Assembly (NCBI GenBank): GCA_021234155.1
Contig: JAJEKV010000778.1
Location: 1 to 64,000, forward strand
Length of the DNA: 64,000 bases
Origin: Isoetes taiwanensis
Taxonomy: Eukaryota; Streptophyta; Lycopodiopsida; Isoetales; Isoetaceae
Direction of reading: 5' to 3'
In this document: positions 23,621 to 60,419 of the stretch, piece after piece
Position numbering within the stretch: position 1 is the first letter of the stretch
Layout of the letters: every line of letters starts with the position of its first letter
The notes under the pieces: generated by a model
Told to the model about the DNA's origin: nothing
Seen by the model: the letters and a program-made list of their open reading frames with translations, nothing else
Databases searched by the model: none
Translations under genes and position numbers: made by a program

Positions 23621-24184
23621 GTAGTGATGGCCTCCCTTTCTTGAGATCCATGATCACTTATATAGGGTACTCACTCTTGTGGCATGCCGCCACGTGTATG
23701 CATGCATGCATATGGACTCTTGGAGTCTCCTTATGCCACTTGTCCCTTAAACCTCTAATCCTTAGGTTTAATGGTCCTATGACCTAGGGACCAACATATG
23801 TATGTAACATATGACTAGGGCCTAACCTATTTTCGTAACATTCTATTAGATTCCCTTAGATTTTATAAGGTTCCTTGCATTCTATGAAGATTCCGTCTAG
23901 ATTCCATTAGATTTCCCTAGATTCTATGAAGATCCCCTTAGATTCCCTTAGATCCTATTAGATTTTATGAGATTGCCCTAGGTTCCCTTACATTATATGA
24001 GATTCAAAGAGATTCTATAAAGATTTCTCTAGATACTCTAAGATTTCATCAAGATTTTCTTAAATTCCCTTAGATTTCCCTAGATTTTAAGAGATTCCCT
24101 TAGACTTGTAAATCTTTTCCTAGTTTCTCTCATATTTTATGAGATTTCTTTAGATTCCTTTAAATTCTCCTGGATTCCTTTACA

Positions 24185-24227
24185 TTCTAGAACTTTCTAG
24201 AACATTCTAGGACTTTCTAGAACATTC
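24185..24227. promoter_or_regulatory. Phased TTC/GAA array (heat shock element geometry)
   Basis: Alternating TTC and GAA triplets start every 5 bases from 24,185 to 24,227; nine modules, one mismatched. Confidence 0.5.
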
Positions 24228-24392
24228 TGAAACTATCAAAACATCCTAGAACATTCTGGAAGTATTTCCCTATTCCCTTACATTCCCGAAGATTCCCCTA
24301 CATTCTAGAACTTATTAGAACAATTTGGAACTTTCTGGAATGATTCTCTTAGATTCCCCGTAGATTCTCTTATATTCTAAAACTTTTTAGAA

Positions 24393-24440
24393 TTCTTGAA
24401 CTTTCTAGAACATTCTAGAAGATTTTAGAACTTTCTAGAG
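24393..24440. promoter_or_regulatory. Phased TTC/GAA array upstream of head 1
   Basis: Ten modules at exact 5-base steps, with mismatches only at 24,423 (TTT) and 24,438 (GAG). It ends 90 bases before the A box at 24,530. Confidence 0.5.
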
Positions 24441-24529
24441 CCTCCAGAACATTTTAGAACTACTTTATCTTAATTAGGATATTACCCTTAAATATATTTG
24501 AAACATATATCATTCAATGAATTAATGCT

Positions 24530-24581
24530 TAGTGTAGTGGTTAGAACAAGGAGCTAGGGGGTTAATGACTAGGTTCAAATC
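24530..24581 (+). promoter_or_regulatory. tRNA-like head 1 (A and B boxes)
   Basis: TAGTGTAGTGG (24,530-24,540) fits the A-box consensus TRGYNNARNNG, and GTTCAAATC (24,573-24,581) fits the B-box consensus GWTCRANNC. The spacing of 32 bases is normal for a tRNA-type internal pol III promoter. Confidence 0.7.
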
Positions 24582-25141
24582 TCCCACACAACAAAAAAAT
24601 TTTAAAAGTCTCTTCTTAAGGGACGAGCATTCAACGTGGCCCGTGGAATCTTAGATTCGATCAAGGATAGAGATCTCACCATGTGAAAATAATGAAAGCA
24701 ACATGAGCCGTAGGATCTATAACATATAATTCCCAGAGCCATGTGGACCGTATGATATGTGCCAAGCCATGTGAGCCATAGGATCCTGGATCAACGATCA
24801 AAATCAAGAACAATCTGGACCATAGGATCTATTACATGTAATTCCCAAAGCCATGTGCACCGTAGGATATGTCCCATAGCAACATGAGCCGTAGGATCTC
24901 GGACCGACGATCAGGATCAAAACAGGATCGTCTATATAGAATCTATATAGAAACTCCCAAGCCATCTGGGCCGTAGAACACGTCCCAAAGCCACGTGGAC
25001 CGTAGAATCTCGGATCAACGGTCGGATAAGCACGACAAACATAAGAACATAAATAAACAAGAAATTTAATGCGTCCTACGGTGCATGTCCGAGTTTTAGC
25101 ATGTTTCTATGCTGCAAGTTCTTGTCGTGCCCTACATTCTA

Positions 25142-25176
25142 AAATATACTTAAGGATATTACCCTTAAGTATATTT
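25142..25176. repeat. 14-bp perfect hairpin at a shortened unit junction
   Basis: AAATATACTTAAGG pairs with CCTTAAGTATATTT around a 7-base loop. In full units several hundred bases separate the flanking parts, so this marks a deletion or recombination junction. Confidence 0.7.
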
Positions 25177-25206
25177 GAAACATATATCATTCAATGAATT
25201 AATGCT

Positions 25207-25259
25207 TAGTGTAGTGGTTAGAACAGGGAGCTAGGGGGTTAATGACCAGGGTTCAAATC
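25207..25259 (+). promoter_or_regulatory. tRNA-like head 2
   Basis: The A box TAGTGTAGTGG starts at 25,207 and the B box GTTCAAATC covers 25,251-25,259. Both match consensus. It lies only 677 bases after head 1. Confidence 0.7.
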
Positions 25260-26714
25260 TCCCACACAACAAAAAAATTTTAAAAGCCTCTTCTTAAGGG
25301 ACGAGCATTCAACGTGGGCCGTGGAATCTTAGATTCGATCAAGTATCGAGATCTCACCATGTGAAAATAATGAAAGCAACATGAGCTGTAGGATCTATTA
25401 CATATGAGCCATGTGGGATGGTATGATATGTGCCAAGCCATGTGAGCTATAGGATCCCGGATCAACGATCAAAATCAAAAAATGCGGACCATAGGATCTA
25501 TTACATGTAATTCCCAAAGCCACGCGAGCAAGTAGGATATGTCCCATAGCAACATGGGCAGTGGGATCTCGGGGCCAAACGATCGGGATCAAAACAATGG
25601 GACCGTAGGAGATCAAGTATCGAGATCTCACCATGTGAAAATAATGAAAGCAACATGAGCTGTAGGATCTATTACATATAATTCCCAGAGCCATGTGGAC
25701 CGTATGATATGTGCCAAGCCATGTGAGCCATAGGATCCTGGATCAACGATCAAAATCAAGAACAATCTGGACCATAGGATCTATTACATGTAATTCCCAA
25801 AGCCACGTGCATCGTAGGATATGTCCCATAGCAACATGAGCCGTAGGATCTTGGACCGACGATCAGGATCAAAACAACCTGGACCGTAGGATCGTCTATA
25901 TAGAATCTATATAGAAGCTCCCAAGCCATCTGGGCCGTAAGACACGTCCCAAAGCCACGTGGACCGTAGGATCTCGGATCAACGGTCGGATAAGCACGAC
26001 AAATATAAGAACATATATAAAACAAGAAATTTAATGCGTCCTACGGTGCATGTCCGAGTTTTAGCATGTTCCTATGCTGCAAGTTCTTGTCGTGCCCTAC
26101 ATTCTAAAAGAATCTTTTAAGAACACTCTAAATTCATAGATTCTCTAAGATTCTACCAAGGTTCTCTTGGAAGTTTCGTGGAGATTCCTCTAAATTTTAT
26201 AACATTCCCTCTAGATTTCATTAGATTTTCGTAGATTCTCTAAGATTCTATGAAGATCCCCCTAGATCCCCTTAGATTCCCTTAGATCCCTTTAGACTTT
26301 ATGAGATTGTCCTAGGTTCCCTTACATTATATGAGATTCAAAGAGATTCTATAAAGATTCCCCTAGATACTCTAAGATTTCATCAATATTTTTTTTAGAT
26401 TCCCTTAAATTTTATGAAGATTCCCTTAGATCCCCCAGATTTTAAGAGATTCCCTTAGGCTTGTAAATATTTTCCTAGAATATTCGAAGACTTTCTTTAC
26501 TTTCTTTCGAATATTTTAGAACTCTTTAGAACATTCTAAGACTTTCTGGAACATTCTAAGACTTTCAATATATTCTAGAACTTTCTGGAAGTATTTCCCT
26601 AGATTTCCTTACATTCTCGTAGATGCCCCTATATTCTAGAACATTCTAAAACTTATTAGAACAATTTGGAACTTTCTAGAATAATTTTCTTAGATCCCCC
26701 CAGATTCTCTTATG

Positions 26715-26752
26715 TTCTAGAACTTTCTAGAAGATTCTAGAACTTTCTAGAG
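26715..26752. promoter_or_regulatory. Phased TTC/GAA array upstream of head 3
   Basis: Seven perfect consecutive modules in 5-base steps (TTC at 26,715 through TTC at 26,745), then GAG. Confidence 0.5.
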
Positions 26753-26830
26753 CCTTCCACTTTCTTGAACTAGCTAGAAATATTACCCTTAAGTATATTT
26801 GAAACATAAATTGTTCATAAAATTAATGTT

Positions 26831-26883
26831 TGGTCTAGTGGTTAGAATGGGGGGCTGGGGGGTCAATGGCTAAGGTTCGAATC
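26831..26883 (+). promoter_or_regulatory. tRNA-like head 3
   Basis: The A box TGGTCTAGTGG (26,831-26,841) and the B box GTTCGAATC (26,875-26,883) both match consensus. Confidence 0.75.
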
Positions 26884-28094
26884 CCTCACACAACATAAAA
26901 ATTTTAAAAGCCTTTTTCTAAGGAATGAGCATTCAACTTGGGCCGTAGGATCTTGGACCCGATCAATGGTCGAGATCTCACCACGTGACAATAATTAAAG
27001 CAACATGAGCCATAGGATCTATTGCATATAATTCCCAAAGTCATGTGCACCGTAAGATATGTGCCAAGCCACGTGAGCCGGAAGATCTCGGATCGACGAT
27101 CATCATCGGATCAACCTAGACCGTAGGATCGATTACATATAATTTCCAAAGCCATGTGCACCGTAGGATGTGTCCCAAAGCAACATGAGTCGTAGGATCT
27201 GGCAACCGATCGGGGATCAGATCAATCTGGACCGTAGGATCGCTTATATATAATCGGACACAAACTCCCAAGCCATCTGGGCCGTAGGATATGTCCCAAA
27301 GCCACGTGAGTCGTAGGATCTCGGATCAACGGCCGGATTCAGGAGGACAAATATAAGAACATATATATGTTATTATAACAAGAAATTTAACACGTCCTAC
27401 GGTGCATGTTCCAATAGTGCAAGTTCCAATTTTAGCATTCCTTTATATTCTTCAACATTCTATGTACTATATTTAGCATTCATGAAGATTCTCTTAGAAT
27501 TTTCTATTTTGATTGAGGTGCTTACCCATGAGCATTTAAAACCTTCCAAAATAATCTATCTTGGATCTGTGCAACATTTCTAAAATACTTTCTATTTTTA
27601 GACTGAGGCGCTTACCCTGAGCATCTAGAACATTTTTTTTTCAAGATTTATATTGTATACCTTTATTATGAAACATTTTAGAACATTCTATTGTGGATCT
27701 TTGCAAAATTTTAAAAAAACTCTAAGATTTCATCGATTTTTTTTAGATTCACTTAGATATTATGAAGATTCCCTTAGATTCAACTAGATTTTAAGAGATT
27801 CCTTTAGACTTGTAAATATCTTTCTAGATTCTCTTATAATTTATGAGATTTCCTTAAATTCCCTTCAATTCTCCTGGATTCCCTTACATTCTACAAATTT
27901 CTAAAAGATTCTAGAACTTTCTGGAACATTCTGAAACTTTCAAAACGTCCTAGAACTTTCTGGAAGTATTTCCCTATTTCCTTAATCCCTTACATTCTAG
28001 AACTTAGTAGAACAATTTGGGACTTTCTGGAAGGATTCTCTTAGATTCCCCCTAGATTCTCTTATATTCCAACACATTTTAGAATTCTACAACT

Positions 28095-28127
28095 TTCTAG
28101 AACATTCTAGAAGATTTTAGAACTTTC
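28095..28127. promoter_or_regulatory. Phased TTC/GAA array upstream of head 4
   Basis: Modules at 28,095, 28,100, 28,105, 28,110, (TTT at 28,115), 28,120 and 28,125. Confidence 0.5.
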
Positions 28128-28229
28128 TAAAGCCTCCAGAACTTTCTAGAACTAGATTTCTATTTTATCTTAATTAGAACATTACCTTTAAGTATATTTG
28201 AAACATAAATTATTCAGAGAATTAATGTC

Positions 28230-28293
28230 TGGTCTAGTGGTTAGAATGTGGTTAGAATGGGGGGCTGGGGGATTAATGACCAGGGTTCGAATC
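28230..28293 (+). promoter_or_regulatory. tRNA-like head 4
   Basis: The A box TGGTCTAGTGG starts at 28,230 and the B box GTTCGAATC covers 28,285-28,293. A duplicated GGTTAGAATG widens the spacing by about 10 bases. Confidence 0.7.
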
Positions 28294-28609
28294 CCTTTAA
28301 TAACATAAAAAATTTTAAAAGCCTTTTCTTAAGATTTGTTGAAAATATCAAGGGCGTAGGATCTTGGACCAAGGATTATGATCAATCTAGACCGTGAGGA
28401 TCATGTAGGATATATCTAACGAACGTGAGCCGTAGGATCTCGGACCAACGGTCGGGATGGATCAACCTAGACCGTAGGATCGCTTACATATAATCGGTCA
28501 CAAACTTCCAAGCCACCTGGGCCGTAGAATACGTCCCAAAGCCACGTGAGCCGTCGGATCTCGGGATCAATGGCGGATTAGGGAGGACAAACATTCTTAT
28601 ATCTGAATA

Positions 28610-29580
28610 TATATATATAATTATTAGGAGTGGCTTCTAGAACCTTCTGTTATATCTATACCGCCGGATCCCGCCGCGTTGTTTACTCCCTCACAATCTC
28701 GCCGCCGGATCCGGTGGCTTCGGAAGTTTCTTGGCGGAGATGTGGCGGCTTCGAGAATGTCTTGGAAATTCTAGAAGATGGCAAGAAATTCTAGAACATT
28801 CTTCAATGTTCTGAATGCTCCTATATATGCGATTGTTGGATGTCGAAATTGTTTTTGGTAGGTATGGCGCGGGCGCTGGTCCTCTTTTGTGGTATGCATA
28901 TTTTTCAGCTTTGGAGCTACGGTTATGGATCTTGGAGCCATGGTTATGGAGGTTTAGCCAATATTTGTTGGGCGGTTAGTGTTATGATATACCGGGCTTG
29001 GCCCCTTTTTATGGGTCGAGATATTTTTCCGGCTTTGGAGCCTACGGTCATGGGCTTTAGCCAATATTTTGTTAGCTGTCGCCATCGCCTTCAAGGAAAG
29101 CCTTTTCCGGATTCCTTCTTCAAACAGAGAGCATGAGATGTATGGTTTGCGGTACCGCATAAAGGATCTTAAACAATATTTGCTTTTCTAGAAGAGCCGA
29201 GGGTAAGGCTGAAAGTGTAGAAGAGGCATTTTCGGCTATGGCAGTGCACTGCGGGTCCTCATGTTATTACGGCTTGGAGCTTTGGAATCGGGCTTTTCTT
29301 TGGCATTTATTTGCAATGCAACTATACTTTGGAGACGCTGATAGGGTTTTGTGGATTCAAAGCTCTCAACCGCAAAACCTTTTCGATGCACTTTCGATTT
29401 TTTGCTCTTTAGATCTGATTTTTTTTATGCAAATAGCTATGATTCCTACATTTTTTTTGCTTGGCGAGGAGTTCATAGGAGGGATTTCAAGCGAAGAAGG
29501 GTGCTTAAATCCAAAGATATTCGTTAATATCGGGAACTATTGAACTGGGTCCACGGTGATTGCCATAGTTTTGGGGATCC
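28610..29580 (+). repeat. Dispersed repeat X, copy 1 (inverted relative to copy 2)
   Basis: This segment starts beside TATATATATAATTATTAGGAG at the end of block 1. With gaps, it is the reverse complement of 44,880-45,615. Shared landmarks include TAGGAGTGGCTTCTAGAA, the TTC/GAA-TATA region, ATTTTTTGCTCTTTAGAT and GGAGTTCATAGGAGGGATTT. Translations of the two copies share FMQIAMIP and EFIGGIS, so an ORF may once have existed, but neither copy is open across it. This copy is longer by internal insertion or duplication around AGCCAATATTTTGTT. The family is unknown; an LTR-like or other retroelement piece is possible. Confidence 0.75.
28789..28830 (+). promoter_or_regulatory. Heat-shock-element-like modules next to a TATA-like box
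   Basis: TTC-TA-GAA-CA-TTC (28,789-28,801), followed by a phased TTC at 28,809, lies about 10 bases before CTATATATGC (28,821-28,830). This is the layout of plant small heat shock promoters. A 98-codon frame begins at 28,840, at the position expected for a transcript start, but its product is unknown. The inverted copy at 45.4 kb preserves the arrangement. Confidence 0.45.
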
Positions 29581-43033: not shown

Positions 43034-43093
43034 GTATATTTGAATTTTAAAAATTATACTAAGTTAGGTTCTAATTGTTTGTTTATTTTGCAG
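43034..43093 (+). other. 60-nt GT-AG intron in the transposase gene
   Basis: ACAG/GTATAT at the donor and TTATTTTGCAG/ATGC at the acceptor flank an AT-rich 60-nt sequence with an in-frame TAA. CTAAT lies near the expected branch position. Removing it gives Gln-Thr-Asp-Ala-Ala-Leu across the junction and keeps the frame. Sixty nt is near the lower limit for plant introns. Confidence 0.75.
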
Positions 43094-45615: not shown

Positions 45616-45678
<63 letters not shown>

Positions 45679-45695
45679 AATATAAAATATATATA
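45611..45695. repeat. (TA)n microsatellite at outer end of unit A
   Basis: About 30 pure AT units followed by imperfect AT sequence, lying exactly between repeat X copy 2 and unit A. Confidence 0.97.
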
Positions 45696-45704
45696 ACGAG
45701 GGTT

Positions 45705-48200
45705 GGAGGCGGTTTGCAACATAAGAGCTAGTTCTGACACTTGTGAAGCTCTCATATTTGTAGGAGATGTCAATTACTCTCACAACAACTTGGCTCAAAA
45801 TACTAAGAGCAGTAGTCTCCTTTATTGCATACGCTCAAAGTACTAGAGCTATGTTTTATCAGGAGCTTTTTGCATAAGCGTCAGGACTTTATTTAAAGGC
45901 GGACTTTCCTTGGATATTTATGGTCACCTAGACATTGGCCATTACATGCACATCTTGGCTAGGGTCAACAATATTGATGATAGTAATTGCCGGACTTGTG
46001 AGGGCGGAATGCTCCCATGCCTTACATCTTTGCAATGAGTATGGCAAGAAAAATAATTTGGAGACCTTGGCTATATGCTTAGGCTTTGTTAAACAAAATT
46101 GACAAAAACATGAAAAATGGCTTAATGCCATACAAAATTAATAAGTATAATTTTGACCTTTAAATTTTTCATGTCAATCATGTAAATTGGTTTTAGGGCA
46201 TGGGCGTAAGCGACGCCTGGTTGCTACCAACCCGACTGGTTGCTACCAACCAGGAAGATTGGGATATGGCAAACAAAGCTCCAGATCTCGGATTTTATGC
46301 TCATTGCTCATCTTTGATGAAGCTGGAAGATTCTATCACGACCGATACAAAGCCACACAAAGAACACATATCAGGTGTGTCTTACATTCTATTCTACTTC
46401 GTAAATCCTCTAGTTATGGAGTAGGAAATCCCAGAAAGAAACTTTGAAGAATAAAGCTTCATAAGAAAGCTGCAGATCACATTTAGGTCGGATTTCAGAA
46501 ATCGTTTTCTGACATAGCTAATCTCGTCAAAACATGACTGTTTTTTCATGAAAAGATAGAGCGTATTGTGCCGTTTCCGAAACATATAATTAATAAAAAA
46601 ACAGAGCTCTGTGCTAAGAGCTATGCCTGTTTTTGTAGGGGCTGTCATTTTATGGCAGCAAGTACTTATCTTCCATTTTTTACAAGCTTAGACTTAAAAT
46701 TTGATGGAGATGCACCTAAGATGAAATATAGACTTAAGAAAGGGGCTTCTTTTGCTTCTATTCTCAAGAAGTTTGGTTGCTTATATCTCTTACTATCGTC
46801 AGTTAACTAACAAATCATGTAGCTTTACATATGATTTTCAATGCAAACGGTGCTAAGCTATGGGCTTGGAGCAAAAGCCAGCGCCTTTGGCACTCTTTAT
46901 CAAGATTGGAACTATCTTACAGATCTGATTTTAAGATCAATGGTAGTTCTTAAAATAATGATCTAATTTGAGAACTTGGAAACTACCCAAATAAGACGTA
47001 ATGTAAATACATGCTGAAATAATGTTTCTTAGAATGCAAATGCATAACTGAGATAATTCATTGATAGGCTAAATTATTCTTGAACTAGTTATGTTCTACT
47101 TTTGTATATCTCCGGGTTATGGAGTAGAAAATCCTAGAAAAGAAACTTTTGAAACAAAAGTTTCATAATAAAGGCTACTTGATTTCATTAGGTCATTTCA
47201 GAAATCGTTTTCTGACATAGCAAATCTCTTCAAAACTTGACTGTTTTCCTTGAGGGATAGAGCATATCATGCGTTTCGAAACATATAATTAATAAAAAAA
47301 CAGAATCTTGTGCTAAGAGTTATGGCGGTTTAAATGCGGGCTGTTATTTCATGGCAGCAAATACTTATTCTTCATTTTTGACATGCTTAGACTTAAAATT
47401 TCAGAGAGATGCACCTAAGTCAAAATGTAGACTCAAAAGGAGCTTCTTTTGCTTCTATTCTTGACAAGTTTGGTTGCTATATCTCTTGCTATTGTCATTT
47501 TAGATAACAAACTATGTAGCTCTCAGTCTACTTTTTTTGGGAGGCTATCGGTAATTTTGATTATACTATTATATTTTGAACTGCAATTTTTGGAATTTAA
47601 GAAAAATCTCAAGTTTAATTCCATTTCTCTTTCTTGTTAACGTTTTCGGGGGCAAAAGGATACAATTGGTGATGGGTGATAAAGGCTGAGAGACCCAATG
47701 TACCTTTGGAAAACTGCATGTTCTGGGATTACGCTAGCGTTTGCATGATTGGCTTTGCAGTGCGGGTTCTCTCCTCAATTGTCTCTGTTTTTTGCTAAGG
47801 GGTTGCGTTAACTTGGAAGGTTATGGAATTCACGAAAAAATGTAGCGCTGTATGCTATCGTTTTACAAGTTATTGTTTAAACTATACACTTTCAAGAAAA
47901 GTCTACTTTGCAATTTTGCTCTCTACTTTATGCGTGTGCTTTAGAATTTGTCTCAACTACTTTTCATTAAGGATGCATAGTTTGGGGCTTGAGAAATCAG
48001 CCCTCGACTAAATATCCTAAATGTTAAGTGTTGAGATATATAGAAAATCACTTACTTGATTTTCCATTAAGGACACATAGTTTTGGGGGCTTGAGAAATC
48101 AGCCCTCTACTAGGAAACTTTGAATGTAAGTAATGAAACGACTAAAGGACTAATATTGAGCTTATTTAGTATTCCCAAGTTAATCCACATTTGGTTTTAG
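45705..48200 (+). repeat. Unit A: left arm of a giant inverted repeat
   Basis: A 2.5-kb unit repeated inverted as unit B and again as unit C. From outside inward it has a 0.7-kb edge (GCAACATAAGAGCTAGTT...GGTTGCTACCAAC) and then two versions of an internal ~700-bp period. Module 1 (about 46,400-46,835) and module 2 (about 47,107-47,531) share CGTTTTCTGACATAGC, ACATATAATTAATAAAAAAA and GGAGATGCACCTAAG-type words. A TTTGGGGCTTGAGAAATCAG part follows. Each module could encode a peptide with SFASIL.KFG, conserved in all copies, but no copy has a full open frame. It is unrecognised; the foldback layout suggests a mobile or satellite-like element. Confidence 0.8.
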
Positions 48201-48239
48201 CTCCTTAAAAAAAAGTAGCTGGAGAGCGCACTAGTTTGT

Positions 48240-50765
48240 TATCTAAAACCAAATGAGTCCAGATTAAGAATACTAAATAAGCTCAATATTAGTCCAAGTC
48301 GCTCATTACTTTCACATTCAAACATAGTAGAGGGGTGATTTCTCAAGCCCCAAAAACTATGCATGTCAAAAATGGAAAATCATATGTTTATTTGCTGCCA
48401 TATCTCAACACTTAACATTTAGGATATTTAGTCGAGGGCTGATTTCAAGCCCCAAAACTATGCATCCTTAATGAAAAGTAGTTGCTGAGACAAATTCTAA
48501 AGCACACGCATAAAGTAGAGAGCAAATTGCAAAGTAGACTTTCTTGAAAGTGTATAGTTTAAACAATAACTTGTAAGTTTTATATGACGCTACATTTTTT
48601 TTTCAGAATTCCATAACCTTCCAAGTTAACGCTAACCCCGTAGCAAAAAATATAGACAATTGAGGAGAGAACCTGCACTGCAGCCAATCATTTAAACCTA
48701 GCAAAGAATCCTGAAGTTATGTAAGGGCATTCTAAGGTACATTGGGTCAGCATGTATTATACATTACACCAATTGTATCCTTTTGCCCCGAAATTAAACA
48801 TTAACAAGAAAGAGAAATGGAATTAAAACTTGAGATTTTTCTTAAATCCCAAAAAAATTGCAAAAGTTCAAAAAATATAATAGTATAATCAAAATTACTG
48901 ATAGCCTCCAAAAAAAGTAGACGGAGAGCTACATAGTTTGTTATCTAAAATGACAATAGTAAAGAGATATAAGCAACCAAACTTCAAGAATAGAAGCAAA
49001 GAAGCCTTTTCTGAGTCTACATTTTGACTTAGGTGCATCTCCCTGAAATTTTAAGTCTAAGCATGTCAAAAAATGAAGAATAAGTATTTGCTGCCATAAA
49101 ATAACAGCCCCTACAAAACTGCCATAACTCTTAGCACAAGACTGCTTTTTATTAATTATATGTTTCGAAACGGCATGATATGCTCTATCCTTTTCAAGGA
49201 AAAACAGTCAAGTTTTGAAGAGATTTGCTATGTCAGGAAAACGATTTCTGAAATCCGACCTAATGAAATCTGCAGCTTTATTATGAAACTTTTGCTTCAA
49301 AGTTTCTTTCTAGGATTTTTCTACTCCATAACCCGGAGATATACAAAGTAGAACATAACTAGTTCAAGAATAATTTAGCCTATCAATGAATTATCTCAGC
49401 TTATGCATTTGCATTCTAAGAAACATTATTTCAAAATGTATTTACATTACGCCTTATTTGGGTAGTTTCCAAGTTCTCAAATTAGATCATTATTTTAAGA
49501 ACTACCATTGATCTTAAAATCAGATCTGTAAGATAGTTTCAATCTTGATAAAGAGTGCCAAAGGCGCCGCTTTTGCTCCAAGCCCATAGCTTAGCAACCT
49601 TTTGCATTGAAAAATCATATGTAAACCTACATGATTTGTTAGTTAACCGGACGATAGTAAGAGATATAAGCAAACCAAACTTCTTGAGAATAGAAGCAAA
49701 AGAAGCCCCTTTCTTAAGTCTATATTTCATCTTAGGTGCATCTCCATCAAATTTTAAGTCTAAGCTTGTAAAAAAATGGAAGATAAGTACTTGCTGCCAT
49801 AAAATGACAGCCCCTAAAAACAGGCATAGCTCTTAGCACGAGCTCTGCTTTTTTATTAATTATATGTTTCGGAAACGGCACAATATGTTTCTATCTTTTC
49901 ATGAAAAACAGTCAAGTTTTGACGAGATTAGCTATGTCAGAAAAACGATTTCTGAAATCCGACCTAAATGTGATCTCAAAATTTTCTTATGAAGCTTTAT
50001 TCTTCAAAGTTTCTTTTTTTCTCGATTTCCTACTCCATAACTAGAGGATTTTACGAAGTAGAATAGAATGTAAGACACACCTGATATGTGTTCTTTGTGT
50101 GGCTTTGTATCGGTCGTGATAGAATCTTCCAGCTTCATCAAAGATGAGCAATGAGCATAAAAACTGGTGATCCGAGCTTTGTTTGCCATATCCTAATCTT
50201 TCCGGGTTGGTAGCAACCAGCTGGGTTGGTAGCAACCAGGCTGTCGCTTATTTCATGCCCTAAAACCACTTACATGATTGACATGAAAAATTTAAAGGTC
50301 AAAATTATACTTATAAATTTTGTATGGCATTAAGCCATTTTTCATGCTTTTGTCAATTTTGTTTAACAAAGCCTAAGCATATGTACCAAGGTCTCCAAAT
50401 TATTTTTCTTGCCATACTCATTGCAGTATGCAAGGCATGGGAGCATTTCCGCCTCGACAAGTCCGGTCAATTACTATCATCAATTTTGTTGACCCTAGCC
50501 AAGATGTGCATGTAATGGCCAATGTCTAGGTGACCATAAATATCCAAGGAAAGTCTCCGTTTTAAATAAAGTCCGGACGCTTATGCAAAAGCTCCGTGAT
50601 AAAACATAGCTCTAGTACTTTGAGCTGCATGCAATAAAAAGGAGACTACACAGCCTCTTAGTATTTTGAGCCAAGGTGTTGTGAGAGTACTTGACATCTC
50701 CTACAGCGTATGAGCTTCACAAGTGTCAGAACTAGCTCTTATGTTGCAACCTATCTCAACTTTGT
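48240..50765 (-). repeat. Unit B: right arm of the giant inverted repeat
   Basis: Reverse complement of unit A across a centre near 48,222. CTAAAACCAAATG at 48,243 mirrors CATTTGGTTTTAG at 48,188-48,200. The 40-base spacer (GTAGCTGGAGAGC...AGTTTGTTATC) is itself a piece of the internal repeat, matching 48,910-48,955, so the centre looks like a recombination joint between modules. The outer end reaches a (TA)n tract at 50,767. Confidence 0.8.
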
Positions 50766-50766
50766 T

Positions 50767-50799
50767 TATATATATTTATATTTTATATATATATATATA
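50767..50799. repeat. Short (TA)n tract at outer end of unit B
   Basis: An imperfect TA run, shorter than the others, directly followed by CCTACCTCCTACTAGAAG. Confidence 0.9.
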
Positions 50800-50803
50800 G
50801 TAT

Positions 50804-51350
50804 CCTACCTCCTACTAGAAGTAGGGTCCTAAAAGAAAATTCAAGATATTGCTAGGTAGCGCAGGGTACCTAGCATTCTGCTAGGACCCTACGTTACCTG
50901 TAAATCGTTACAATGTTAAAAGATAAAAGATAAATCACATAGCAGAAATTCATACCTTTATGGTCCTACTCAGGTTTCAAGAAGCCCAATTTTTTAATGT
51001 TCATAAACCATAGAAATCCGTCATAATTCTGTGGCTAGTACTTAGTCATTTTTTAAATGTCCCAATGCATCAGTAAATAGCAAACAGTAAGTAAGTAGCA
51101 AACAAGTAATAGCCAATGTAACGATAGAGCAGTGCGAATGGAAAACATAATGTTCAATAAATCACTTAGAGGTGTATGCAGGTTCAATCAATTCAGGTGG
51201 ACTCAAAAGGATAGAGTTTCATATCCTTGAATATGATAACAGATGTTTCAGCATATATACTTTCCTTTGCCTAGGGTCTAATCTAGCCAAGTCCATACTC
51301 CTAACTTGGTCACTTAACCGAAGCTAGAGAAATTACGTCACGGCACTACC
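50804..51350 (-). mobile_element. Insert between units B and C, with an end like that of the reverse-transcriptase element
   Basis: CCTACCTCCTACTAGAAG beside the (TA)n tract matches CCTACCTCCTACCGGAAG beside the (TA)n tract at 63.27 kb, 16 of 18 bases. Just inside, TAGGGTCCTA and TAGGACCCTA form an inverted repeat, as GGGAGGGTCC and GGACCCTCCC do at 63.3 kb. This suggests a 5'-truncated relative of the element at the right edge. No coding frame remains. The inner border is where unit C starts (CTAAACCAAATGAG). Confidence 0.45.
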
Positions 51351-53842
51351 GTGCCCTAAACCAAATGAGTCCAACAAGAATACTAAATAAGCTCAATATT
51401 AGTCTGAAGCTGTTCATTACTTTCACATTCAGGCTACCTAGTAGAGGGCTGATTTCTCAAGCCCCAAAACTATGTGTCCTTAATGGAAAACTGTTACAAG
51501 CGATTCTTAAGCATATCTCAACACTTAACATTTAGGGATATTTAGTCGAGGGCTGATTTCTCAAGCCCCAAAACTATGCATCCTTAATGAAAAGTAGTTG
51601 AGACAAATTCTAAAGCACACGTACAAAGTAGAGAGCAAATTGCAAAGTAGACTTTTCTTGAAAGTGTATAGTTTAAACAATAACTTGTAAAACGTATAGC
51701 ATACAGTTACATTTTTTTCGTAATTCCATAACCTTCCAAGTTAACGCCAACCCTGGTAGCAAAAAAGAGAGACAATTGGAGGAGAGAACCTGCACTGCGC
51801 CAATCATGCAAGCGTTAGCGGTAATCCATTAGCGATGCAAGGGCCAAAAGGTACATTGGGTCTCTCGGTTTATCCGATCACCAATTGTATCCTTTTTGCG
51901 AGTAAACGTTAACAAGAAAGAAAATGGAATTAAAACTTGAGATTTTTCTTAAATCCCAAAATTGCAGTTCAAAATATAATAGTATAATCAAAATTACTTT
52001 GATAGCCTCCAAAAAAAGTAGACGGAGAGCTACATAGTTTGTTATCTAAATGACAATAGCAAGAGATATAAGCAACCAAACTTCTCAAGAATAGAAGCAA
52101 AAGAAGCTCATTTTCTGAGTCTACATTTTGACTTAGGTGCATCTCTCTGAAATTTTAAGTCTAAGCATGTCAAAAATGAAGAATAAGTATTTGCTGCCAT
52201 GAAATAACAGCCCGCACAGAAACTGCCATAACTCTTAGCACAAGACTCTGTTTTTTTATTAATTATATGTTTCGGAAACGGCATGATATGCTCTATCCTC
52301 TCAAGGAAAAACAGTCAAGTTTTGAAGAGATTTGCTATGTCAGAAAACGATTTCTGAAATCCGACCTAATGAAATCTGCAGCTTTATTATGAAACTTTTG
52401 CTTCAAAGTTTCTTTCTAGGATTTTCTACTCCATAACTTGGGAGATATACAAAGTAGAACATAACTAGTTCAAGAATAATTTAGCCTATCAATGAATTAT
52501 CTCAGTTATGCATTTGCATTCTAAGAAACATTATTTCAGCATGTATTTACATTACGTCTTATTTGGGTAGTTTCCAAGTTCTCAAATTAGATCATTATTT
52601 TAAGAACTACCATTGATCTTAAAATCAGATCTGTAAGATAGTTTCAATCTTGATAAAGAGTGCCAAAGGCGCTGGCTTTTGCTCCAAGCCCATAGCTTAG
52701 CACCGTTTGCATTGAAAATCATATGTAAACCTACATGATTTGTTAGTTAACTGACGATAGTAAGAGATATAAGCAACCAAACTTCTTGAGAATAGAAGCA
52801 AAAGAAGCCCCTTTCTTAAGTCTATATTTCATCTTAGGTGCATCTCCATCAAATTTTAAGTCTAAGCTTGTAAAAAATGGAAGATAAGTACTTGCTGCCA
52901 TAAAATGACAGCCCCTACAAAAGCAGGGCATAGCTCTTAGCACGAGCCTCGTTTTTTTATTAATTATATGTTTGGAACGGCTGTCACGCTCTATCTTTTC
53001 ATGAAAAACAGTCAAGTTTTGACGAGATTAGCTATGTCAGAAAACGATTTCTGAAATCCGACCTAAATGTGATCTGTGACTTTCTTATGAAGCTTTATTC
53101 TTCAAAAGTTTTTCTTTACGGTTTCCTACTCCATAACTAGAGGATTTCACAGTAGAATAGAATGTAAGACACACCTGATATGTGTTCTTTGTGTGGCTTT
53201 GTATCGGTCGTGATAGAATCTTCCAGCTTCATCAAAGATGAGCAATGAGCATAAAATCCGAGAGATGGAGCTTTGTTTGCCATATCCGAATCTTCGGGTT
53301 GGTAGCAACCAATTTGGGTTGGTAGCAACCCAGCGGTCGTTACGCCCATGCCTAAACCAATTTACATGATTGACATGAAAAATTTAAAGGTCAAAATTAT
53401 ACTTATTAATTTTGTATGGCATTAAGCCATTTTTCATGTTTTGTCAATTTTGTTTAACAAAGCCTAAGCATATAGCCAAGGTCTCCAAATTATTTTTCTT
53501 GCCATACTCATTGCGGTATGCAAGGCATGGGAGCATTTAAGCCCCCTCGACAAGTTAGTCAATTACTATCATCAATATTGTTGACCCTAGCCAAGATGTG
53601 CATGTAATGGCCAATGTCTAGGTGACCATAAATATCCAAGGAAAGTCGCCTTAAATAAAGTCCGGACGCTATGCAAAAGCTCGGATAAAACATAGCTCTA
53701 GTACTTTGGCGTATGCAATAAAGGAGACTACACAGCTCTTAGTATTTTGAGCCGGTGTTGTGAGAGTACTTGACATCTCTCTGGTGGTATGAGCTTCACA
53801 AGTGTCGTAAACTAGCTCTTATGTTGCAAACCGTCTCAACCT
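51350..53842 (-). repeat. Unit C: direct copy of unit B
   Basis: Same order and orientation as unit B, both internal modules included, starting CTAAACCAAATGAG and ending GTCTCAACCTGTTATATA. Long stretches are near-identical to B. Differences concentrate in short C/G-containing words. The minus-strand frame 53,015-52,743 (TSLDLKFDGDAPKMKYRLKK) matches that of unit A, reflecting DNA-level conservation. Confidence 0.8.
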
Positions 53843-53843
53843 G

Positions 53844-53850
53844 TTATATA

Positions 53851-53916
<66 letters not shown>
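53844..53916. repeat. (TA)n microsatellite between unit C and composite block 2
   Basis: About 36 TA units with one interruption. The sequence to the right (CAATAAATTTAATCGTCC) is the tail of a composite-repeat unit, which itself normally follows TATATA. Confidence 0.97.
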
Positions 53917-53918
<2 letters not shown>

Positions 53919-54273
53919 TGATATATATATACAATAAATTTAATCGTCCTCACGACACATTGTTCAGCTTTTAGCATGTTCTTATGGACCAAGGCCCTGT
54001 CGTGCATCTAGAACATTTTTTTTTCAAGATTTATATTGTACACCTTTATTATGAAACATTTTAGAACATTCTATTGTGGCTCTTTGCAAAATCTTAAAAA
54101 AAACTCTAAGATTTCATCAAGATTTTCTTAGATTCCCTTAGATATTATGAAGATCCCCTTAGATTCAACTAGATTTTAAGCGATTCCGTCAGACGTGTAA
54201 ATATTTTCCTACATTCTCTTACAATTTATGAGATTTCCTTATATTCCCTTTAATTCTTCTCGATTCCCTTACA

Positions 54274-54306
54274 TTCTAGAAATTTCTAGAACATTCTAGA
54301 ACTTTC
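54274..54306. promoter_or_regulatory. Phased TTC/GAA array
   Basis: Seven perfect consecutive modules in 5-base steps. Confidence 0.5.
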
Positions 54307-54463
54307 TGAAACTTTCAAAACATCCTAGAACTTTCTGGAAGTAGTTCCCTATTCCCTTACATTTCCGAAGATTCCCCTACATTCTAGAAATTATTAGAAC
54401 AATTTCGGCTTTTCTGGAAGGATTCTCTCAGATTCCCCCTAGATTCTCTTGTATTCCAAAATA

Positions 54464-54506
54464 TTCTAGAACTTTCTAGAACATTCTAGAAGATTTTAGA
54501 ACTTTC
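54464..54506. promoter_or_regulatory. Phased TTC/GAA array upstream of head 5
   Basis: Nine modules with one mismatch (TTT at 54,494). It ends about 125 bases before the A box. Confidence 0.5.
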
Positions 54507-54629
54507 CAGAGCCTCCAGAACATTCTAGAACTTTCTTGAACTATCTAGAATGTTATATTCTATTTTATCTTAATTAGAGCATTACCCTTAAGTATATTTG
54601 AAACATAAATTATTCATAGAACTAATGCT

Positions 54630-54683
54630 TGGTCTAGTGGTTAGAGTGGGGGGTTTGAGGGGTTGAGGGCCAAGGTTTGAATC
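54630..54683 (+). promoter_or_regulatory. tRNA-like head 5
   Basis: The A box TGGTCTAGTGG is intact. The B box is GTTTGAATC (54,675-54,683), one base off consensus. Confidence 0.6.
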
Positions 54684-55855
54684 CCTCCAATAACATAAAA
54701 AATTTTAAATGCCTTTCCTTAAGGGACGAGCATTCAACATGAGCCTTAGGATCTTAGACTCGATCAACGATTAAGATTTCACCATATAAAAGCAATATGA
54801 GCCGTAGGATCTATTACATATAATCCCCAAAGCCATATGGACCGTAGGATATGTGCCAAGCCACCTGAGCCGTAGGATCTCGGATCGACGATCAAGATCA
54901 AGAGCAACCTGGGCCGTTAGATCGATTACATATAATTCCCAAGCCATGTGCACCGTAGGATGTGTCCTAAACCAACGTGAGCCGTAGGATCTCGGACCGA
55001 CGATCAGGATCGAATCAGCCTGGACCGTAGGATCGCTTACATATAGTCTATACACAAACTCCCAAGCCATCCGGGCCGCACGATACATCCCAAAGCCACG
55101 TGAGCCGTAGGATCTCGGATCAACGGTCGGATTCAAGAGGACAAACATAAGAACATATACATGCGACAAACAAACTCCCAAGCCATCTGGGTCGCACGAT
55201 ACGTCCCAAAGCCACGTGAGCCGTAGGATCTCGGATCAACGGTCGGATTGAGTGTTACAAACATAAGAACATATATATGTTATGATATACAAGAAATTTA
55301 GCACGTCCTACGGTGCATGTTCCTACGGTGCAAGTCCCAGTTTTACCATGTTCTTACGATGCAAGGCCCTGACGTGCTCTAGGTACTGAGATTCTCTTGT
55401 GATTCCTTTATATTCTTCAACATTCTATGTACTATATTTAGCATTCATGAAGATTCTCTTAGAATTTTCTATTTTGATTGAGGTGCTTACCCATGAGCAT
55501 TTAGAACCTTCCAAAATAATCTATTTTGTATCTGTGCAACATTTCTAAAACACTTTCTATTTTTAGACTGAGGCGCTTACTCTGAGCATCTAGAACATTT
55601 TTTTTTTCAAAATTTATATTGTATACCTTTATTATGAAACATTTTAGAACATTCTATTGTGGCTCTTTGCAAAATCTTAAAAAAACTCTAAGATTTCATC
55701 AAGATTTTTTTAGATTCCCTTAGATATTATGAAGATTCCCTTAGATTCAACTAGATTTTAAGAGATTCCTTTAGACTTGTAAATATCTTCCTAGATTCTC
55801 TTATAATTTATGAGATTTCCTTAGATTCCCTTTAATTCTCCTGGATTCCCTTACA

Positions 55856-55898
55856 TTCTAGAAATTTCTAGAACATTCTAGAACTTTCTGGAACATTC
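55856..55898. promoter_or_regulatory. Longest perfect phased TTC/GAA array
   Basis: Nine consecutive perfect modules from TTC at 55,856 to TTC at 55,896, each 5 bases apart. Confidence 0.55.
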
Positions 55899-56063
55899 TG
55901 AAACTTTCAAAACATCCTAGAACTTTCTGGAAGTATTTCCCTATTTCCTTACATTCCCGAAGATTCCCCTACATTCTAGAACTTATTAGAATAATTTGGG
56001 ACTTTCTGGAAGGATTCTCTTAGATTCCCCCTAGATTCTCTTATATTCCAAAACATTTTACAA

Positions 56064-56111
56064 TTCTAGAACTTTCTAGAACATTCTAGAAGATTTTAGA
56101 ACTTTCTAGAG
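56064..56111. promoter_or_regulatory. Phased TTC/GAA array upstream of head 6
   Basis: Ten modules at 5-base steps, with mismatches at 56,094 (TTT) and 56,109 (GAG). Confidence 0.5.
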
Positions 56112-56216
56112 CCTCCAAAACTTTCTAGAACTTTCTTGAACTATCTAGAATATGATATTCTATTTTATCTTAATTAGAACATTATCTTTAAGTATATTTA
56201 AAACATAAATTATTCA

Positions 56217-56269
56217 TGGTCTAGTGGTTAGAATGGGGGGTTGGTGTGTTTTTGAGCAGGGTTCGAATC
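56217..56269 (+). promoter_or_regulatory. tRNA-like head 6
   Basis: The A box TGGTCTAGTGG (56,217-56,227) and the B box GTTCGAATC (56,261-56,269) both match consensus. The usual leader before the A box is shortened. Confidence 0.7.
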
Positions 56270-57203
56270 CCCTTAATAACATAAAAATTTTTAAAAGCCT
56301 TTCCTTAAGATTTTTTGAAAATACCAAGGCCCGAGCATGCAATGTGAGCCGTAGGATCTTGGACCAAGGATTATGATCAATCTGGATCGTAGGATCATGT
56401 AGGATATATCTAAAGCAACGTGAGCCGTATGATCTCATACCGACGGTCAGGATCAGATCAACCTGGACCGTAGGATCGCTTACATATAATCGGATACAAA
56501 CTCCCAAGCCATCTGGGCCGTACGATACGTCCCAAAGCCACGTGAGCCGTAGGATCTCAGATCAACGGCCGGATTCAAGAGGACAAACATAAGAACATAT
56601 ATATGCATAAGAACATATATATGTTATGACAAGAAATTCAATGCGTCCTACGGTGCATGTCCGAGTTTTAGCATGTTCCTATGCTGCAAGTTCTTGTCGT
56701 GCCCTACATTCTAAAAGAATCTCTTGAGAATACTCTAAATTCATAGATTCTCTAAGATTCTACCAAGGTTCTCTTGGAGGTTTCGAGGAGATTCCTCTAA
56801 ATTTTATAACATTCCCTCTAGATTCCATTAGATTTCCATAGATTCTCCAAGATTCTATGAAGATCCCCCTAGATCCCCTTAGATTCCCTTAGATCCCTTT
56901 AGACTTTATGAGATTGCCCTAGGTTCCCTTACATTATATGAGATTCAAAGAGATTCTATAAAGATTCCCCTAGATACTCTAAGATTTCATCAACATTTTT
57001 TTAGATTCCCTTAGATTTTATGAAGATTCCCCTAGATTCTCTTATGTTCTAGAACTTCCTAGAAGATTCTAGAACTTTCTAGAGTCTTCCAAAACATTCT
57101 AGAACTTTCTTGAACTAGCTAGAATGTTATAGTCTATTTTATCTTAATGGGAACATTACCCTTAAGTATATTTGAAATATAAATTATCTATGGAATTAAT
57201 GCT

Positions 57204-57256
57204 TGGTCTACTGGTTAGAATGGGGTGTTGGGGGGTCAATGGCCAGGGTTCGAATC
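57204..57256 (+). promoter_or_regulatory. tRNA-like head 7
   Basis: The A box TGGTCTACTGG has one mismatch. The B box GTTCGAATC (57,248-57,256) is intact. Confidence 0.65.
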
Positions 57257-58472
57257 CCCCACATAACATAAAAATTTTAAAAGCCTTTTCCTAAGGGATG
57301 AGCATTCAACTTGGGCCGTAGGATCTTGGACCCGATCAAGGGTCGAGATCTCACCATAATTAAAGCAACATGAGCCATAAGATCTATTACATATAATTCC
57401 CAAAGCCATGTGCACCGTAGGATGTATCCCAAAGCAACGTGAGCCGTAGGATCTCGGACCCGAAGCGATCGGGGATCAGATCAACTTGGACGTGGGATCG
57501 CTTACATATAATGGGAAACAAACTCCCAAGCCATATGGGCGTAGGATATGTCCCAAGTAGGATATGTCCCATAGGAACATGAGCCGTGGGATCTCGGACC
57601 GGCGATCGGGGATCAAAACCCCTTTGGACGTGGGATCGTCTATATAGAATCTATATAGGCCATCAAATACGTGGGACACGTCCCCAAAGCCACGTGGGCC
57701 GTGGGATCTCGGATCAACGATTCGGATAAGCCGCGAACAAATATAAGAACATATATATATAATATATAAAACAAGAAATTTAATCGGCCCCATGGTGCAT
57801 GTCCGAGTTTTAGCATGTTCTTATGCTGCAAGTTCTTGTCGTGCCCTACATTCTAAAAGAATCTTTTAAGAATACTCTAAATTTATAGATTCTCTAAGAT
57901 TCTACCAAGGTTCTCTTGGAAGTTTCGTGGAGATTCCTCTAAATTTTATAACATTCCCTCTAGATTTCATTAGATTTTCGTAGATTCTCTAAGATTCTAT
58001 GAAGATCCCCCTAGATCCCCTTAGATTCCCTTAGATCCCTTTAGACTTTATGAGATTGCCCTAGGTTCCCTTACATTATATGAGATTCAAAGAGATTCTA
58101 TAAAGATTTCCCTAGATACTCTAAGATTTCATCAATATTTTTTTTAGATTCCCTTAAATTTTATGAAGATTCCCTTAGATCCCCCAGATTTTAAGAGATT
58201 CCCTTAGGCTTGTAAATATTTTCCTAGAACATTCGAAGACTTTCTTTACTTTCTTTACTTTCTTTCGAATATTTTAGAACTTTTTAGAACATTCTAAGAC
58301 TTTCTGGAACATTCTAAGACTTTCAATATATTCTAGAACTTTCTGGAAGTATTTCCCTAGATTTCCTTACATTCTCGTAGATGCCCCTACATTCTAGAAC
58401 ATTCTAAAACTTATTAGAACAATTTGGAACTTTCTAGAATAATTTTCTTAGATCCCCCCAGATTCTCTTATG

Positions 58473-58510
58473 TTCTAGAACTTTCTAGAAGATTCTAGAA
58501 CTTTCTAGAG
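58473..58510. promoter_or_regulatory. Phased TTC/GAA array upstream of head 8
   Basis: Seven perfect modules then GAG. This is the duplicate of 26,715-26,752. Confidence 0.5.
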
Positions 58511-58618
58511 CCTTCCACTTTCTTGAACTAGCTAGAATGTTATAGAGTCTATTTTATCTTAAAAGGAATATTACCCTTAAGTATATTTGAAACATAAATT
58601 GTTCATAAAATTAATGTT

Positions 58619-58671
58619 TGGTCTAGTGGTTAGAATGGGGGGCTGGGGGGTCAATGGCTAAGGTTCGAATC
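58619..58671 (+). promoter_or_regulatory. tRNA-like head 8
   Basis: Both boxes are intact (58,619-58,629 and 58,663-58,671). It is the counterpart of head 3. Confidence 0.75.
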
Positions 58672-59893
58672 CCTCACACAACATAAAAATTTTAAAAGCC
58701 TTTTTCTAAAGGAATGAGCATTCAACTTAGGGTAGGATCTTGGACCCGATCAATGGTGAGATCTCACCACGTGACAATAATTAAAAGCAACATGAGCCAT
58801 AGGATCTATTACATATAATTCCCAAAGTCATGTGCCAATCAGTAAGATATGTGCCAAGCCACGTGGTAGGAAGATCTCGGATCGACGATCATCATCGGAT
58901 CAACCTAGACCGTAGGATCGATTACATATATAATTCCCAAAGCCATGTGCACCGTAGGATGTGTCCCAAAAGCAACATGGCCGTAGGATCTCCGGACCAG
59001 CGATCGGGATCAGATCAATGCGGACCGGTAGGATAAACTTACATATAATGGGACACAAACTCCCAAGCCATCCGGGTAGTAGGATCGTCCCAAAAGCCAC
59101 GTGAAAGTAGGATCTGGATCAACTGGCCCGGATTCGGAGGACAAACATAAGAACATATATATGTTATGACAAGAAATTTAACACGCCCTCCTTGATTGCA
59201 TGTTCCAATAGTGCAAGTTCCAATTTTAGCATTCCTTTATATTCTTCAACATTCTATGTACTATATTTAGCATTCATGAAGATTCTCTTAGAATTTTCTA
59301 TTTTGATTGAGGTGCTTACCCATGAGCATTTAAAACCTTCCAAAATAATCTATCTTGGATCATTGCAACATTTCTAAAACACTTTCTATTTTTAGACCGA
59401 GGCGCTTACCCCGAGCATCTAGAACTTTTTTTTTTTTCAAGATTTATATTGTATACCTTTATTATGAAATATTTTTAGAACATTCTATTGTGGATCTTTT
59501 GCAAAATCTTAAAAAACTCTAAGATTTCATCAATTTTTTTTAGATTCACTTAGATATTATGAAGATTCCCTTAGATTCAACTAGATTTTAAGAGATTCCT
59601 TTAGACTTGTAAATATCTTTCTAGATTCTCTTATAATTTATGAGATTTCCTTAAATTCCCTTCAATTCTCCTGGATTCCCTTACATTCTACAAATTTTTA
59701 AAAGATTCTAGAACTTTCTGGAACATTCTGAAACTTTCAAAACATCCTAGAACTTTCTGGAAGTATTTCCCTATTTCCTTACATTCCCGAAGAATCCCTT
59801 ACATTCTAGAACTTAGTAGAACAATTTGGGACTTTCTGGAAGGATTTTCTTAGATTCCCCCTAGATTCTCTTATATTCCAAAACATTTTAGAA

Positions 59894-59936
59894 TTCTACA
59901 ACTTTCTAGAACATTCTAGAAGATTTTAGAACTTTC
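59894..59936. promoter_or_regulatory. Phased TTC/GAA array upstream of head 9
   Basis: Nine modules with mismatches at 59,899 (CAA) and 59,924 (TTT). Confidence 0.45.
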
Positions 59937-60038
59937 TAAAGCCTCCGGAACTTTCTAGAACTAGATTTCTATTTTATCTTAATTAGAACATTACCTTTAA
60001 GTATATTTGAAACATAAATTATTCAGAGAATTAATGTC

Positions 60039-60094
60039 TGGTCTAGTGGTTAGAATGGTTAAATTTTGGGGATTAATGACCGTGGTTGAATCCT
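60039..60094 (+). promoter_or_regulatory. tRNA-like head 9, B box degraded
   Basis: The A box TGGTCTAGTGG is intact. The B box reads GTGGTTGAATCC, missing the central C. It is the counterpart of head 4. Confidence 0.55.
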
Positions 60095-60418
60095 TCAATA
60101 ACATAAAAAATTTAAAAGCCTTTTCTTAAGATTTGTTGAAAAATATCAAGGCCCGAGCATGCAATGTGAGTAGTAGGATCTTGGACCAAGGATTATGATC
60201 AATCTAGGCCTTAGGATCATGTAGGATATATCTAACACAAGCGTGGGCCGGGAGGATCTCGGACCAAGCGGTGGGGGATCGGATCAACCTAGGCAGGTAG
60301 GATGAAACACATATAATGGGTCCCACAAACTTCCAAGCCACAGGCGCCGAAGAATCGTCCCAAACGTGGCCCAGAGTAGGATCTCGGATCAATGGCCCGG
60401 ATCGGGAGGACAAACATT

Positions 60419-60419
<1 letters not shown>

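Follow-up and report, generated by a model that had tools for sequence, protein, structure and literature searches.

A probable composite satellite of Isoetes taiwanensis joins heat-element arrays to tRNA-like heads, with a phase that probably stems from its 10-bp monomer

Does a repeat whose TTC and GAA triplets alternate in the binding geometry of heat shock factor (HSF) owe that geometry to the factor? The question is raised by 64,000 nucleotides of Isoetes taiwanensis (GenBank assembly GCA_021234155.1, contig JAJEKV010000778.1, positions 1 to 64,000 of the forward strand; hereafter the window), in which such arrays stand upstream of tRNA-like heads with the A and B boxes of an RNA polymerase III (pol III) promoter. 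A preliminary description read the combination as a repeat family that could be transcribed by pol III and bound by HSF, and named a simple 10-bp TTCTAGAACT satellite as the alternative. This alternative accounts for the phase, and we consider it probable that the locus is a composite satellite whose phase follows from the 10-bp monomer, whose arrays decay neutrally or nearly so, and for which HSF binding is at most a by-product.

The interval given for the repeat, 23,830 to 60,415, is not one feature, as about 25 kb of other sequence splits it into two blocks (23,830-28,598 and 53,932-60,420). These hold nine homologous units (U0-U8) as tandem copies, 1.14-1.40 kb long in the seven full ones; eight of the nine join 10-bp TTCTAGAACW arrays to a head with A and B boxes. 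In a full unit, a 5' part is followed by 10-bp repeats (ATTCCCTTAG-like first, TTCTAGAACW-like after), about 90 bases with a conserved TATATTT, the tRNA-like head, and a body of sub-repeats of about 112 bp that ends near an AT-rich or (TA)n stretch. Tandem Repeats Finder reported a 10-bp period for most TTCTAGAA arrays (20, 29, 30 or 39 bp for some) and, also in the blocks, the related 10-bp unit ATTCCCTTAG, which lacks GAA. A (TA)n tract follows both U3 and U8; block 2 begins directly after such a tract and ends at another (60,421-60,507). Unit borders were placed by eye at the recurring 'acatatatat ... caagaaattt' site before alignment, and these nine linked units of the 64-kb window are the sample for all unit statistics. 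The units are as follows, with the source of each in brackets:

23,830-25,055, plus strand: U0, 5'-truncated, with 10-bp arrays, a head at 24,530 and a sub-repeat body (nine-unit alignment, self-BLAST)
25,056-26,022, plus strand: U1, head at 25,207, TTCTAGAA arrays missing, body partly duplicated (alignment, run scan)
26,023-27,382, plus strand: U2, head at 26,831, 94% identical to U7 (alignment)
27,383-28,598, plus strand: U3, head at 28,230 with an A-B spacing of 54, 93% identical to U8 (alignment, box scan)
53,932-55,290, plus strand: U4, head at 54,630, starting right after a (TA)n tract (alignment)
55,291-56,634, plus strand: U5, head at 56,217, holding a run of nine half-sites (alignment, run scan)
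56,635-57,772, plus strand: U6, head at 57,204 (alignment)
57,773-59,173, plus strand: U7, head at 58,619 (alignment)
59,174-60,420, plus strand: U8, head at 60,039 with two B-box mismatches (alignment, box scan, Tandem Repeats Finder)

Aligned through arrays, head and body, the nine units are 65-94% identical in pairs. The closest pairs are U2-U7 (94%), U3-U8 (93%) and U3-U5 (93%), and self-BLAST matched 25,611-28,619 to 57,334-60,442 with 89% identity. The first two of these pairs make the ends of block 1 and block 2 duplicates. The order of array and head is indeed present in both blocks, as had been stated, but it is not an independent replication. Because the units are copies of one another, array and head were probably joined once, and an independent origin of the combination in the two blocks was rejected on unit identity.

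In the window, 43 runs of at least three half-sites show perfect alternation of TTC and GAA at exact 5-base steps. The blocks contain 38 of these runs, including all 18 with at least four half-sites. With overlapping sites counted separately, 80 of the 85 three-box sites fall in the blocks (about 11 kb); five 1-kb bins hold 10-13 of them, two of these more than 10. Markov (dinucleotide) shuffles, 50 for each block, gave about 0.2 runs of three half-sites and none longer, which rejects single-base chance as the origin of the runs. With adjacent nGAAn motifs at 5-base steps, the runs match strong (3P/4P) heat-responsive elements in their geometry, in agreement with the HSF-site geometry first proposed. 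The nine perfect half-sites reported at 55,856-55,898 are exact. Of the "at least ten" tracts of 33-48 bases, the alternation stands far above shuffles, but only four tracts of at least 33 bases are perfect (three with seven half-sites, one with nine), and the rest must be imperfect ones, which our counts do not include. The four perfect tracts, all from the run scan and without strand, are:

55,856-55,898: nine perfect alternating TTC/GAA half-sites, the longest run, in U5
26,715-26,747: seven half-sites, 84 bases upstream of the A box at 26,831
54,274-54,306: seven half-sites
58,473-58,505: seven half-sites, 114 bases upstream of the A box at 58,619

Eight of the nine heads have a run of at least three half-sites within 150 bases upstream, the nearest run lying 77-114 bases away. 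The exception is U1, which retains its head without arrays and has no run within 200 bases upstream of it.

Box mismatches are few in the heads (24,530, 25,207, 26,831, 28,230, 54,630, 56,217, 57,204, 58,619 and 60,039): eight have at most one per box, and the B box of the head at 60,039 has two. A and B boxes are spaced 42-45 bases apart in all heads but the one at 28,230, where the spacing is 54. Both boxes are free of mismatches in four heads, including the one with spacing 54; two rows of the box scan among these are:

26,831-26,884, plus strand: tRNA-like head, A and B box without mismatch, spacing 43
58,619-58,672, plus strand: tRNA-like head, A and B box without mismatch, spacing 43

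Outside the blocks, a scan allowing one mismatch gave three more A/B pairs (16,843, 44,218 and 60,624), with a chance expectation of about 0.35 per strand; judged by eye, they are unlike the repeat head. TATATTT precedes all nine heads, and a T run of at least four stands at the homologous place downstream in eight. In U8 this place has only TTT, and the T run listed there by our script, which found one of at least four at 70-83 bases after the A box start for every head, is a later, non-homologous one. What stands of the tRNA-like head claimed earlier is thus the boxes at tRNA-like spacing, without a tRNA call: ARAGORN found no tRNA gene in the whole window, and Rfam, with E values up to 5 admitted, listed none in the two blocks. 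A functional tRNA gene was rejected as the identity of the head, since neither program gives a cloverleaf. Rfam matches to microRNA, sRNA and other families (E 0.07-3.9) were likewise rejected, with 20 of 20 below gathering scores and several on the self-complementary arrays. Self-BLAST revealed no solitary copy of the head within the window, the head pattern matched 0 stretches in viral contigs, and a 1,001-base piece of the unit had no match in plasmids.

A phase kept no better than neutral decay would leave it had been named as evidence against the HSF reading, and this is the outcome of the phase-shift and unit-level tests. In the consensus runs of the aligned units, 106 of 138 triplets are intact in the heat-element phase, and shifts by -2, -1, +1 and +2 leave 104, 107, 106 and 108 of 138 intact; counted in letters, 367 of 414 are kept in the heat-element phase vs 371-373 of 414 in the shifted ones. 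The control draws on the same rows and runs and so retains relatedness, which the simulation described below does not; we give this test the most weight. At the unit level, 64 of 538 heat-element letters and 30 of 281 spacer letters are off consensus (p=0.65); the letter most often off is G (19 of 89), which is key to GAA. In the 144 monomers that have two mismatches or fewer, changes at C3 (25) and G6 (35) are about as frequent as at the spacer position C9 (30 of 144), G6 having no spacer counterpart for a base-matched comparison. Moreover, the five-base step from TTC to GAA is already present within TTCTAGAA, and arrays with a period of ten repeat it, so the whole 5-bp alternation is one coincidence, not many.

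Several observations lean against neutral decay. Pooled over monomers, changes at heat-element positions vs T4, A5 and C9 amount to 31 of 534 vs 23 of 267 with one mismatch allowed (p=0.14), 95 of 864 vs 65 of 432 with two (p=0.04) and 305 of 1578 vs 195 of 789 with three (p=0.003), a mild lean towards constraint. The lean is due to base A (A7/A8 9 of 288 vs A5 26 of 144, two mismatches); in base-matched counts, C differs significantly at no mismatch limit, and the single difference for T (10 of 178 heat-element vs 0 of 89 spacer, p=0.03, one mismatch) has the opposite direction. A simulation at the spacer rate, which treats related units as independent and ignores their shared ancestry, gave 110.6 +/- 5.8 intact half-sites vs 120 of 156 seen (reached in 7% of runs), 16.8 +/- 2.7 row-runs of at least three vs 24 seen, and 6.5 +/- 1.7 of at least four vs 9 seen (reached in 12%). 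The spacers of the TTCTAGAACW monomer also fit the plant module CTnGAAnnTTCnAG, an uncommon match for a random 10-mer; judging from excerpts of the source, this is the heat-element module used by the PLACE database (PMC2746236), and TTCTAGAA is, on the same footing, a site of one Phytophthora infestans heat shock factor confirmed by electrophoretic mobility shift assay (PMC11267843). Finally, variability is lower in the columns of the A and B boxes than in the linker (0.066 vs 0.179; p=0.06 by column permutation), a hint that pol III may once have used the heads, in a unit where 16 of the 252 window pairs examined are as conserved.

Can such an array arise where no HSF acts on it? A pattern of eight half-sites occurs at 17 loci in a prokaryote genome collection and at one locus in viral contigs. 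The runs span 8-20 half-sites, and most are visibly 10-bp repeats, e.g., TTCAGGAAAA in Methanosarcina. To our knowledge, prokaryotes should lack heat shock factor, and perfect long runs in such organisms mean that a run of nine half-sites alone does not imply the factor. Since eight half-sites were required to find them and many are metagenome-assembled records, these loci show that arrays occur, not how frequent they are relative to the Isoetes genome. The bacterial and archaeal 10-bp repeats have the form TTCnnGAAnn.

The composite satellite that we favour may have formed as follows. A short palindromic word, perhaps from a promoter of the type found beside block 1 (E3, below), would have been expanded by slippage into 10-bp arrays next to a head resembling a short interspersed nuclear element (SINE). 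The unit combines a minisatellite of the 10-bp palindrome TTCTAGAACW with a tRNA-like head, presumably derived from such an element, and with the sub-repeats of about 112 bp. This composite presumably became a tandem unit and spread with its neighbours as tandem and segmental duplicates, in blocks bordered by (TA)n tracts, and its arrays would now be decaying neutrally or nearly so. The sequence itself shows the anatomy, the homology of the units and, in the shift test, a phase without excess conservation; we infer the growth by slippage and unequal exchange, the SINE-like origin of the head and the capacity to bind HSF. Where accessible, intact stretches would probably be bound by HSF, as a by-product and not as what maintains the repeat; such binding is plausible because HSF is reported to bind adjacent nGAAn motifs in ONSEN retrotransposons (PMC3907296, PMC5059998) and comparable sites in worm Helitrons (PMC6927752, PMC6765114) and in Alu repeats (PMC3334603).

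The promoter-like segment E3 is present in two copies, both from BLAST and a word scan:

28,621-29,520, plus strand: E3a, flanking promoter-like segment
44,932-45,612, minus strand: E3b, inverted homologue of E3a

Block 1 passes directly into E3a across a short (TA)n tract, and E3 holds four of the five perfect runs found outside the blocks. TTCTAGAA words lie at 28,635, 28,769 and 28,789 in E3a, with a further one at 29,186 and a TATATA 33 bases downstream of where the 28,789 word starts; in E3b they lie at 45,507, 45,457 and 45,437, with TATATA downstream on the minus strand. Both copies have three words in their first 250 bases, two of them exactly 20 bases apart, and the distance from the start of the second paired word to TATATA is 33-35 bases, an arrangement that we take to be the layout of a heat-inducible RNA polymerase II (pol II) promoter. 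Homology between the copies is patchy (three BLAST pieces, 76-83% identical). The stretch from the word pair to TATATA is identical at 58 of 63 columns vs 181 of 287 in the rest of the 350 aligned columns, with bounds chosen after the alignment had been viewed, gaps counted as mismatches and two copies compared. On its sequence, E3 is a better candidate for a heat-regulated promoter than the units.

From this one could go further and regard E3 as the heat-inducible pol II promoter of a mobile element, with the satellite arrays derived from it or acting as its upstream enhancer. The spaced words, the conserved segment and the continuity with block 1 speak for this, but the other TTCTAGAA words, such as the third, differ in place between the two copies, the two frames downstream in E3a (28,795-29,133 and 29,163-29,540) have no Pfam match at E up to 1, and E3b does not adjoin block 2 in the present order; we would regard this reading as rather unlikely. 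Terminal repeats like the E3 end TTATTAGGAGTGGC gave 6 matches vs 6.2 expected, of which E3a and E3b themselves account for the only two that are exact.

As to the order of the segments, block 2, its (TA)n borders and E3b (45,612-60,507) are arranged as if inverted relative to block 1 and E3a. Turning 45.6-60.4 kb round would bring block 2 to E3b as block 1 meets E3a; an assembly error at the (TA)n tracts is as possible as a true inversion. The intervening 45,612-53,931 contains three copies of a repeat of about 2.55 kb, two of them head to head (copies 1 and 3 92%, copies 2 and 3 90% identical), and one end of each copy carries a (TA)n or TA-rich tract. The (TA)n tracts of this region are at 45,612-45,695, 53,845-53,931 and 60,421-60,507.

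According to the preliminary description, the unit itself would be selected and heat-responsive, transcribed by pol III from its head and either bound by HSF or acting as an HSF sink. The 18 longer runs and 80 three-box sites of the blocks, the boxes with their flanking TATATTT and T runs, and the lean of the monomer counts and the simulation all accord with it, and in excerpts of one study, chromatin immunoprecipitation-PCR confirmed that human Alu repeats contain HSF sites (PMC3334603). Like Alu, the unit would place heat-factor sites within a repeat having a pol III promoter; unlike in Alu, where a different motif lies inside the element, canonical-element arrays stand upstream of the head. 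Neither phase nor unit-level letters show excess conservation, however, the order of array and head was kept through duplication, and one head has no array. We also know of no need of pol III type 2 promoters for heat elements. Judged on these sequence features, selection on the unit appears improbable.

The arrays might instead serve both promoters, the E3 TATA (pol II) and the tRNA-like heads (pol III), as a heat-triggered non-coding locus in which one factor couples the two and whose arrays grew from a duplicated E3-type promoter element. This reading would unite the two kinds of promoter, but we think it quite improbable, a shade more so than selection on the unit itself.

It is highly doubtful that the unit is or was the long terminal repeat (LTR) of a TRIMp3-type (Helenus-like) element with a tRNA-derived promoter that later came to stand in tandem. 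The tRNA-like head does lie within a long repeated unit, and tandem arrays are known, according to excerpts, for Cassandra (PMC7215508) and for one family in the Helenus paper (PMC10886601), with both of which the unit shares a pol III-type promoter in a long repeated unit. Unlike these elements, the blocks have no initiator-Met primer-binding site within two mismatches (other primers are not covered), and neither TG...CA ends nor 5-bp target duplications, or LTR ends generally, were noticed when the sequence was viewed by eye, with no dedicated test. Finally, the palindromic array might matter as a hairpin whose transcripts could feed small-RNA silencing, which we deem very improbable: three modelled arrays fold well beyond dinucleotide shuffles (z = -4.15, -4.14 and -3.14; two heads z = 0.52 and 0.08), but every alternating TTC/GAA array would fold into such long hairpins because TTC and GAA are reverse complements.

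How does the repeat compare with known systems? Helitrons are recognized by TC ... CTRR ends with a 3' hairpin, or by Rep/helicase; no CTRR hairpin was noticed by eye at the (TA)n borders, and Pfam found no helicase among the nine open reading frames of the window that were run. For the Helitrons of Caenorhabditis bearing heat shock elements, HSF-1 binding and heat induction were shown, and their authors regard clusters of high site density as a signature, on the basis of 1-kb windows with more than 10 sites (PMC6927752, PMC6765114; as with all papers compared here, in the text examined). Like them, the Isoetes repeat bears dense, overlapping tandem heat elements, with its two 1-kb bins above 10 sites; unlike them, it is known from sequence alone, and tRNA-like heads are not mentioned for the Helitrons in the text examined. 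ONSEN/COPIA78 and further Brassicaceae COPIA elements carry adjacent nGAAn elements of the 3P and 4P types with heat induction shown, and the ONSEN heat element arose through duplication of a TTCnnGAA proto-element (PMC3907296, PMC5059998). The Isoetes repeat shares the adjacent nGAAn elements of the 3P/4P types on a repeat, but, unlike ONSEN/COPIA78 with few elements in its LTR, it has tens of them in minisatellite arrays and no LTR structure was noticed.

The monomer of human satellite III differs from the Isoetes one. Human satellite III likewise is a satellite with putative heat elements; it is an HSF1 target and is described as transcribed by pol II after heat (PMC9032817). SINE-derived satellites (PMC10702118), from what the text examined reports, resemble it as tandem arrays built from SINE parts; the Isoetes unit differs in adding the 10-bp heat-element array and the 112-bp sub-repeats, with no solitary head in the window. 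In the open-access literature, seen as titles and the starts of abstracts, none of the matches listed joins heat-element arrays to a tRNA-like head.

Dense heat elements carried by repeats have, according to the text examined, reportedly rewired heat responses in worms and drive heat-activated retrotransposons of Brassicaceae (PMC6927752, PMC6765114, PMC3907296, PMC5059998). With arrays and a pol III-type head beside a TATA promoter, the present locus is a natural case for asking if a satellite acts as a heat-factor sink or enhancer. It also gives reason for caution, as a 10-bp palindromic satellite can yield perfect factor-binding geometry for free, which the bacterial and archaeal examples suggest.

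Additionally, we noted a pattern in the substitutions of the units: at CpG positions of the consensus, the bodies of U2, U3, U6, U7 and U8 show 34 transversions vs 19 transitions, and the other four units 10 vs 17. The transversion excess in five units is unlike deamination; errors of base calling or assembly at methylated CpG may be responsible.

Other features of the window concern its coding potential and a further repeat. Pfam was run on nine of the 40 listed stop-to-stop frames of at least 100 residues, seven of which had no match at E up to 1. A DDE_1 transposase fragment (PF03184, E 4.5e-19) lies at 42,370-43,047 on the plus strand, and Pfam matched nothing in the open frame just after it (43,075-43,893) at E up to 0.001. 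On the minus strand, a 202-residue open frame at 63,393-63,998, without a Pfam match at E up to 1, contains RYIDDLL, which we take to be reminiscent of the catalytic motif of reverse transcriptases. The stretch 17,143-18,006 is a degenerate tandem repeat with periods of about 31 and 64 bp.

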